From a virus, in IMG/VR virus record IMGVR_UViG_3300022837_000111, positions 1-22,039 of that record: DNA of 22,039 bases. One strand, written 5' to 3'. Of this stretch, positions 330 to 1,537 are shown piece by piece; position 1 is the first letter of the stretch, and every line of letters begins with the position of its first letter. The notes beneath the pieces were generated by a model, which worked only from the letters and a program-made list of their open reading frames with translations, was not told the origin of the DNA and did not search any database. The position numbers and the translations under genes were made by a program.

Positions 330-773
330 TTAATTCGAGTATAGCACTGTTCCTGTCTTGTTAATAGCTAATGCTTGTCGTCTAGGTGTTTCATTATCTT
401 CGCAAAAAGAGATATGCACCCACTTATCATATTCCAGAATAATTTGGTCAAAAGGAATATTGGAATTAATAAGAGCCATAACAATGTCATTAGGACTACC
501 AAAACCCCTTGCTGTAAAGTCACAAGCCAGTCCTTTAACGTGGCTAGATGTTTTTTTAGAACCGAGAAGGGTATTAAGCTCAAGGCAACGATAACCGCTA
601 GAAACATATATAATATTATTACCAAGATGTTCACGCACGTCCTCCATAAAATTTGCTGTTAATAAAAGATTGTCTTTCTGCTTTTCGTCTGGAGTATTAT
701 CTATACCATGCCTTATTGCTGTTTCGCTAAAAGTTAGTTCGTCAATACTAAAGTGCGGACTTGCCATTATCAT
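330..773 (-). CDS. M15-family peptidase endolysin
   Basis: This 147-residue protein fits the single-domain peptidase M15 (D-Ala-D-Ala carboxypeptidase/L-Ala-D-Glu peptidase-like) endolysins, which cleave peptide bonds in the host peptidoglycan. Visible motifs are SGYR (59-62), SSHVKGLACDF (76-86; H78 and D85 expected zinc ligands) and WVHIS (118-122; H120 third ligand), with E114 or D116 as the likely catalytic acid. There is no signal peptide, so it should need a holin to reach the wall. The ATG at 773 overlaps the preceding holin stop as ATGA and has AGGG upstream. An in-frame ATG at 767 would remove two residues. It is the last gene of the lysis cassette. A same-strand hydrophobic reading frame is nested within it. 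Confidence 0.92.
   Translation of the reverse strand: MIMASPHFSIDELTFSETAIRHGIDNTPDEKQKDNLLLTANFMEDVREHLGNNIIYVSSGYRCLELNTLLGSKKTSSHVKGLACDFTARGFGSPNDIVMALINSNIPFDQIILEYDKWVHISFCEDNETPRRQALAINKTGTVLYSN
368..634 (-). CDS. Possible nested hydrophobic protein inside the endolysin gene
   Basis: An 88-codon frame lies wholly inside the endolysin gene, on the same strand, in the +1 frame. It starts at GTG 634. A GGAGG Shine-Dalgarno sits six bases upstream, a strong match for this phage. The product has a hydrophobic helix at about residues 2-24, a charged loop with several lysines, a second long hydrophobic helix at about 43-67, and an amphipathic basic tail. That layout resembles a two-TM holin or antiholin. 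The caution is that AT-rich genes often give hydrophobic translations in the +1 frame, and the GGAGG also encodes endolysin residues. I recognise no family. It is entered as a candidate because start signal, length, topology and position within a lysis cassette agree. Confidence 0.35.
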   Translation of the reverse strand: MNILVIILYMFLAVIVALSLIPFSVLKKHLATLKDWLVTLQQGVLVVLMTLLWLLLIPIFLLTKLFWNMISGCISLFAKIMKHLDDKH

Positions 774-1165
774 TTAGTCAGACCCTTCATCTTCTCGAAT
801 GTTCTCATAGAGCCAAGACCTAATAGTCCCATAAGGACAGTCATTAAACTACCCATATCAAACACAGGCAATGGAGGTATGGTTGCACCAGCCCATGCTG
901 CGAAGAACGTAATTAGTGGAACGCCAACAAAGTGCCAAGCCATAGCAACGCCACATACCCATCCTATAAATGGTCGCCATCCTGCTACCCATACGGTTCT
1001 ATGTGTTGCTTCAATCTTGTTAGTTTCTGCTTGAGCTAGGTTGAGTTGTGTTGCATTGGCAATAAGCTCTGCCTCTATAGCTTGTTTAGCTTTATTTGCA
1101 CCATTCTTGTCTGGGATGACTCTATCAATCACAGTGGAGATTAGTGGTAATAGTATGTTTAGCAT
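770..1165 (-). CDS. Holin, GTA_holin_3TM-like
   Basis: This 131-residue membrane protein has an N-terminal hydrophobic helix (about 1-17), a polar helical stretch rich in Ala, Gln and Glu (20-55), and then the motif RPFIGW (64-69). That motif starts two further membrane segments (about 66-93 and 104-120) ahead of a basic tail. The RPFIGW motif and overall layout match the 3TM holin family known from gene transfer agents and many phages, which form the inner-membrane lesion releasing the endolysin. The ATG at 1165 directly follows the TAA of the 37-residue membrane protein, and its own TGA overlaps the endolysin start. These junctions place it firmly in a co-translated lysis operon. It could act with, or be countered by, the other small membrane proteins upstream. 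Confidence 0.85.
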   Translation of the reverse strand: MLNILLPLISTVIDRVIPDKNGANKAKQAIEAELIANATQLNLAQAETNKIEATHRTVWVAGWRPFIGWVCGVAMAWHFVGVPLITFFAAWAGATIPPLPVFDMGSLMTVLMGLLGLGSMRTFEKMKGLTK

Positions 1166-1279
1166 TTAGTGAGTCCATCCGTATAATATACAAGCAATAA
1201 TTGGGGTGAGAGGTAGTACAGCGATTAGCGTTAAAAGCGTTACCACTGGCTTGGCGCATAGTTTAGTTAAGTAGTACAT
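1166..1279 (-). CDS. 37-aa hydrophobic membrane protein in lysis cassette
   Basis: A short frame (37 codons plus TAA) begins at ATG 1279, with GGAG eight bases upstream. It ends with a TAA touching the ATG of the 3TM holin. The product has basic residues at K6 and K10 and a long hydrophobic segment from about residue 11 to 33, ending in YGWTH. IIAC (27-30) superficially matches a lipobox, but only seven residues would follow the cysteine, too few for a usual outer-membrane spanin. Its start overlaps the end of the 24-residue frame by 17 nt in another frame. I know no family for it. An antiholin, pinholin-like or accessory lysis role is inferred from position only. Confidence 0.6.
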   Translation of the reverse strand: MYYLTKLCAKPVVTLLTLIAVLPLTPIIACILYGWTH

Positions 1280-1337
1280 AGCAGTAGCTCCATAACAACA
1301 CTACTGCAAAACAGGCAATAAGAACATGCTCTTTCAT
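1263..1337 (-). CDS. 24-aa single-TM peptide in lysis cassette
   Basis: This very small frame starts at ATG 1337, overlapping the TGA of the upstream holin as ATGA, with AAGGA eight to nine bases upstream. The 24-residue product begins MKEH and is then almost entirely hydrophobic (about residues 5-23), so it should be a single membrane-spanning peptide. The exact ATGA junction and ribosome binding site argue that it is translated. The same junction type joins the other lysis genes. No homologue is recognised. It may tune lysis timing, or its translation may simply couple to the 37-residue protein downstream, whose frame it overlaps. Confidence 0.55.
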   Translation of the reverse strand: MKEHVLIACFAVVLLWSYCYVLLN

Positions 1338-1537
1338 TGTACCCATCCTTTAATTAATACAGATACTATGCCTCCGATAAATGATGCGATTGCCATACCC
1401 ATCCAGAAGCCACCTTTACCTTGATTAGCTAGAGCTAGGATTGCCTTCATATCTTTTTGTAACTCATCTTGTGTGTGTTGTAGGTGGTTGATTTGTTCTT
1501 TCATCTTACCAAATTCTACTGGGTTTATGGTGTTCAA
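1334..1537 (-). CDS. Small coiled-coil/single-TM holin-like protein
   Basis: This 67-residue protein has a polar helical N-terminal part (residues 8-38, with heptad-like hydrophobic spacing) followed by one membrane segment (about 43-63) and a short basic C-terminus. The layout resembles XhlA-type haemolysin/holin accessory proteins, which lie cytoplasmic-helix first with a C-terminal anchor. The start chosen is TTG 1537, overlapping the TGA of the preceding ejection gene and carrying AGGA about eight bases upstream. ATG 1504 (residue 12) is a possible alternative that would shorten the helix. It is the first gene of the lysis cassette and is followed by an ATGA junction. Family assignment is by shape only. 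Confidence 0.7.
   Translation of the reverse strand: MNTINPVEFGKMKEQINHLQHTQDELQKDMKAILALANQGKGGFWMGMAIASFIGGIVSVLIKGWVQ

Follow-up and report, generated by a model that had tools for sequence, protein, structure and literature searches.

The endolysin gene of a 22,039-base virus record very probably contains a second gene, read on the same strand in the +1 frame and lying wholly within it. We regard this nested gene as overprinted on the endolysin and its product as a two-helix membrane protein that may act in lysis timing, either as a second holin or as an antiholin, and we assign this reading a probability of about 0.6. The existence of the gene is far better supported than its role. Features of the window, by which we mean the whole record that was analysed, are listed in Table 1.

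Table 1. Nested gene, host gene and neighbouring lysis genes in the window
Feature	Position	Strand	Basis
Nested +1-frame gene, 88 aa, GTG start	368..634	-	ORF, comparative tests, hydropathy
GGAGG, Shine-Dalgarno-like, six bases 5′ of GTG	641..645	-	Sequence
Host gene: M15_3 peptidase endolysin, 147 aa	330..773	-	PF08291, phrog_894
GTA_holin_3TM family holin, 131 aa, upstream of the endolysin with a 4-base overlap	770..1165	-	PF11351, E 1e-18; phrog_3427 holin, E 3e-27
Small conserved ORF of 37 aa with a single hydrophobic helix, immediately upstream of the holin gene	1166..1279	-	Conservation
67-aa gene, polar N-terminal part, C-terminal hydrophobic helix, conserved in relatives' cassette	1334..1537	-	Conservation

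The host gene matches Peptidase_M15_3 in Pfam (PF08291, E 5e-19) and the endolysin family phrog_894 in PHROG (E 3e-34). Within it, the nested frame runs on the minus strand from GTG 634-632 to a stop at 370-368, 88 codons in +1 relative to the endolysin, and its start is spaced GGAGG-ACGTGC-GTG, as described in the original prediction. That prediction had also taken it for the only long one among the same-strand alternative frames it examined, and its run is indeed the longest +1 run among the window's genes (97 codons stop-to-stop; the next is 67). Codons ending in A make up only 1 of the 21 Leu, Ile and Val codons inside the frame, whereas elsewhere among the window's genes their share is about half. 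In a single sequence the run is only moderately unusual: runs of at least 96 codons arise somewhere in 3.5% of codon-shuffled windows (P about 0.03, anywhere in the window), so that one sequence leaves the nested gene unsettled. AT-rich genes do produce hydrophobic +1 frames, and the amino acids of the endolysin combined with AT-rich codon usage could have given such a frame by chance, with no product.

Relatives were collected by scanning IMG/VR with the endolysin, an endolysin alignment, the neighbouring holin and the Venkman endolysin; phage records were added, and the comparison set comprised 144 distinct, complete, codon-aligned endolysin genes. By endolysin identity, the cultured relatives are the Methylophilales phages Venkman EXVC282S (66%) and MEP301 (50%), together with P19250A (44%). 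The number of +1 stops expected was obtained by redrawing each gene's codons among synonyms, drawn from genes of similar G+C. A real gene had been predicted to keep its frame open in homologous endolysins, and it does so in the clade of the window and Venkman, where codons 45-135 contain no +1 stop in 43/43 distinct genes. The expectation was 5-7 stops per gene (P at most about 0.002 for every one), and the first 44 codons of these genes carry at least as many +1 stops as expected. Across all 144 genes, the distribution at codons 46-99 is bimodal, with 82 genes having no +1 stop, 7 having one and 55 having at least two, whereas synonymous shuffles yield 4-8 stops in almost every gene tested.

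Outside the window's clade, frame-bearing genes come in a long form, open to about codon 131-135, and a short form, open to about codon 99-118; nested products are about 90 aa in the long form and 55-76 aa in the short form. Stops disappear at the predicted start and reappear at the predicted end. In long-form genes the frequency per codon is 0.09-0.24 before codon 41, zero at codons 51-130 and 0.14 at codons 131-140, and in short-form genes +1 stops resume past about codon 100. The open frame is retained in divergent relatives beyond what codon usage predicts, which is difficult to reconcile with a chance frame. In P19250A-like and G+C-rich genes, stops are roughly as frequent as expected, some genes having slightly fewer. 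Many related phages that retain the endolysin lack the nested frame or have it broken, so the nested gene is dispensable in some backgrounds.

The presence of a start codon was compared with the state of the frame in 69 representatives (39 with both, 27 with neither, 3 with the start only and 0 open without a start), and the two agree in 66/69. On a tree built without the start columns, the open state needs 9 changes, at least 6 of them on starred branches, gain not being told from loss. In a sign test on independent pairs, 5/5 informative pairs agree in a typical pairing (median p 0.06, with few pairs). As a natural test of overlapping genes, coupled changes of start and frame of this kind are unusually clean, and they are not what a chance frame would be expected to give.

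Most relatives start at an ATG that lies two codons upstream of the position of the window's GTG. This ATG arises from the endolysin's own E-N/D-V motif, a point in favour of chance, so that its conservation cannot by itself count as independent evidence; it is informative that nearly all frameless genes lack it. Shine-Dalgarno-like sites are found in 29/38 frame-bearing genes, compared with 12.5 expected (SD 2.5), and in 1/22 of the other genes. According to the original prediction, loss of the GTG or GGAGG in close relatives would count against the gene. Taken literally, such loss has occurred in relatives L004 and L101, but the ATG two codons upstream serves there as it does in most relatives, so that the start has moved and has not been lost. 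The upstream ATG, including that of L004 and L101, usually has a purine-rich site of its own.

Synonymous variation in the endolysin frame provides a further measure of constraint. In the Venkman clade, third-position diversity drops from 0.216 before the nested frame to 0.100 inside it and is 0.268 beyond its end. In this clade, changes that alter the nested product while leaving the endolysin protein the same are rarer than changes silent in both frames (pSN/pSS 0.31 (0.17-0.84), few sites being silent in both). In the pooled short-form groups, diversity falls from 0.19 ahead of the frame to 0.092 at codons 46-99 (p 8e-6 relative to outside). Suppression is missing at codons 108-134 of these groups (diversity 0.232), as expected for a frame that ends earlier. 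Lineages that lost the nested frame show no synonymous suppression. In the pooled long-form groups, suppression at codons 46-99 reaches only p 0.09, and a group that never had the frame is also low in diversity over codons 108-134, so that this segment is not decisive alone. The suppression foreseen in the original prediction was thus observed, within the limits of the overlap, in the Venkman clade and the pooled short forms, and did not extend to the four genes closest to the window, in which there is no clear drop (0.250 vs. 0.244 at codons 46-99, few sequences).

The window's nested protein has predicted hydrophobic helices at residues 3-21 and 44-62 and a basic C-terminal stretch, in agreement with the two helices and basic tail first ascribed to it. 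Two hydrophobic segments are present in 15/15 representatives examined, short forms among them, and long-form products have a positively charged end. In the window protein the loop and the C-terminus are both positive, and charges give no clean two-helix topology in the long form. Hydropathy exceeds the synonymous-codon expectation in every tested frame-bearing row of the window's clade (z 2.0-3.9; window z 3.9), as it does in most frame-bearing rows elsewhere; the tested frameless rows show no clear excess. The initial caution that hydrophobic +1 frames can be a chance product of AT-rich genes does not account for this pattern. By hydropathy, then, the product is predicted to be a small membrane protein of the kind expected of a holin or antiholin. 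Pfam and PHROG searches with the nested products gave weak matches only: the best PHROG match of the window protein, at E 0.013, is to a family of unknown function, and one PHROG "holin" family matches nested products at E 0.005 (2/31 members). A search of solved structures gave no convincing match, and membership in any holin family is accordingly not claimed.

The nested gene sits directly after the holin gene in a cassette with 4-base overlaps and is therefore placed, inside the endolysin and beside a holin gene, within the lysis cassette. We considered whether the nested frame occurs only beside GTA_holin_3TM genes, and this was ruled out by L027 and L043, which carry the frame although the gene upstream has no match in Pfam. 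The idea that frameless lineages carry a separate replacement gene, raised by a 106-113-aa membrane gene in L139 and L149, is unsupported, since the frame-bearing L004 has a similar gene and L138, L026 and L040 have none. As a cassette component, a membrane gene of 106-115 aa is seen in L139 (-342 to -1), L149 and L004 (-1012 to -665). L149 also has a 64-aa lipoprotein-like ORF (LLQGC), 418-612 after the endolysin start, that overlaps the endolysin end and is possibly part of a spanin.

Other small genes accompany the cassette. The 37-aa ORF at 1166-1279 (window sequence LIAVLPLTPIIACILYGWTH) lies between the 67-aa gene and the holin gene and is probably a further membrane protein of the cassette. 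Directly upstream of the holin, 88/160 holin loci have an ORF containing the motif P-[IVLFM]-[ST]-P, in 42 distinct sequences; this ORF is unannotated in Venkman and MEP301. The 67-aa gene at 1334-1537, whose N-terminal part is probably coiled, is kept in L004, L009, L014, L051 and L159; no Pfam or PHROG family matched it above the cut-off. After the endolysin, an ORF at 1-306 on the minus strand runs off the window end and appears by eye to be exonuclease-like, with an RNase H fold. A similar gene takes its position in L004 and L009, and a phosphodiesterase in MEP301.

How should the nested product be interpreted? The original prediction proposed a lysis gene embedded in the endolysin gene. 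Its reality is strongly supported, and the proposed holin or antiholin role is plausible for a product lacking a family match and with a GTA_holin_3TM gene directly upstream. A two-helix protein made from the endolysin message beside a holin would most simply be a second holin or an antiholin, and cassette place and two-helix build favour a holin-like or antiholin-like role. With a dedicated holin gene next door, a second holin is not required. The alternative that survives best, although we consider it doubtful, is a real nested membrane protein with some other role, for example in phage exclusion, in host takeover or as an aid to outer-membrane disruption. Small membrane proteins serve many roles in phages, the product matches no family, and no spanin pair was evident beside the endolysin in the loci examined by eye; a position inside the lysis cassette next to the holin gene and a build typical of holins and antiholins argue the other way.

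Programmed frameshifting from the endolysin, which would fuse its N-terminus to a membrane tail, is highly improbable. In some relatives the frame is already open as far as 11 codons ahead of the start (codon 34), and L006 (1503-1942) and L020, which are the same contig, carry a one-base deletion that creates exactly such a fusion to an intact nested frame. This deletion may be a sequencing error or a real mutation, and it is a single case. A slip site would have little room in L031, L043 and several short-form genes, where the open run precedes the start by a single codon, and the joint occurrence of start codon and open frame and the excess of Shine-Dalgarno-like sites likewise argue against slippage. 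That the frame is a chance by-product of endolysin coding is scarcely credible and is in effect refuted by the comparisons of stops, start coupling and synonymous changes, the last of which track the frame ends in long and short forms.

In the preferred reading, the nested gene would be translated independently from the shared lysis mRNA and its product would insert into the inner membrane, where, as a second holin or as an antiholin, it might act together with the GTA_holin_3TM protein to set when the membrane opens for the endolysin. Nesting would couple the gene to the endolysin message, keeping enzyme and membrane protein in step. More tentatively, these genes could form a family of overprinted lysis regulators that has escaped annotation in marine and other phages with M15_3 endolysins, its members probably being antiholins that pair with GTA_holin_3TM proteins. 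Such a family would exist in long and short forms, would have been lost more than once, and would have its regulator amount tied to endolysin amount.

Annotation routinely overlooks genes that lie entirely inside others. This one is carried by two cultured phages, Venkman and MEP301, and is missing from both deposited annotations; it is therefore testable at the bench. The MEP301 copy is a short form of 61 codons, with GGAGG nine bases before its TTG start. The setting is one of phages of streamlined marine bacteria, in which lysis control has hardly been studied. A tblastn search of phage records with nested products matched Venkman alone and found no standalone homologue among those records, and a literature search of incomplete coverage found no report of a nested gene within these M15_3 endolysins.

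Among known systems, small membrane proteins of ICP1, a phage of Vibrio cholerae, include an identified pair of holin and antiholin, and antiholins often occupy overlapping frames according to the authors of that study (PMC7182436). The GTA_holin_3TM family (PF11351) resembles the nested product in being a membrane protein of the same cassette, but the nested product does not match the family, and the holin gene and the nested gene lie side by side. S68 of phage phi21 has two helices. The phi21 pinholin is described in PMC6139136, and two-helix holins and pinholins of this type are like the nested product in small size and in having two hydrophobic helices; unlike S68 and its kin, the gene studied here is nested instead of separate and has no detectable family match. 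Rz1 within Rz, the lambda spanins (PMC6139136), is likewise a case of a lysis-cassette gene that occupies a different frame within a lysis gene. Rz1, however, is an outer-membrane lipoprotein, whereas the nested product has two hydrophobic helices and, by eye, no lipobox with a cysteine (as in o-spanins such as Rz1) in the aligned sequences read.

The closest parallel in arrangement is a holin-like gene inside an endolysin gene, reportedly known from one phage, the Staphylococcus phage 187. As far as can be taken from the title cited in PMC4353335, which reports such a gene in phage 187, both cases involve a holin-like product encoded wholly within the endolysin gene in another frame, the likeness in our case being one read from sequence. 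The phages considered here differ in having M15_3 endolysins and in being phages of Gram-negative marine bacteria, the cultured members infecting Methylophilales; a separate holin gene adjoins, conservation extends over a large clade, and long and short forms exist. The likeness is one of arrangement, and the nested gene would make a second case, and a broadly conserved one, of a membrane gene lying inside an endolysin gene.
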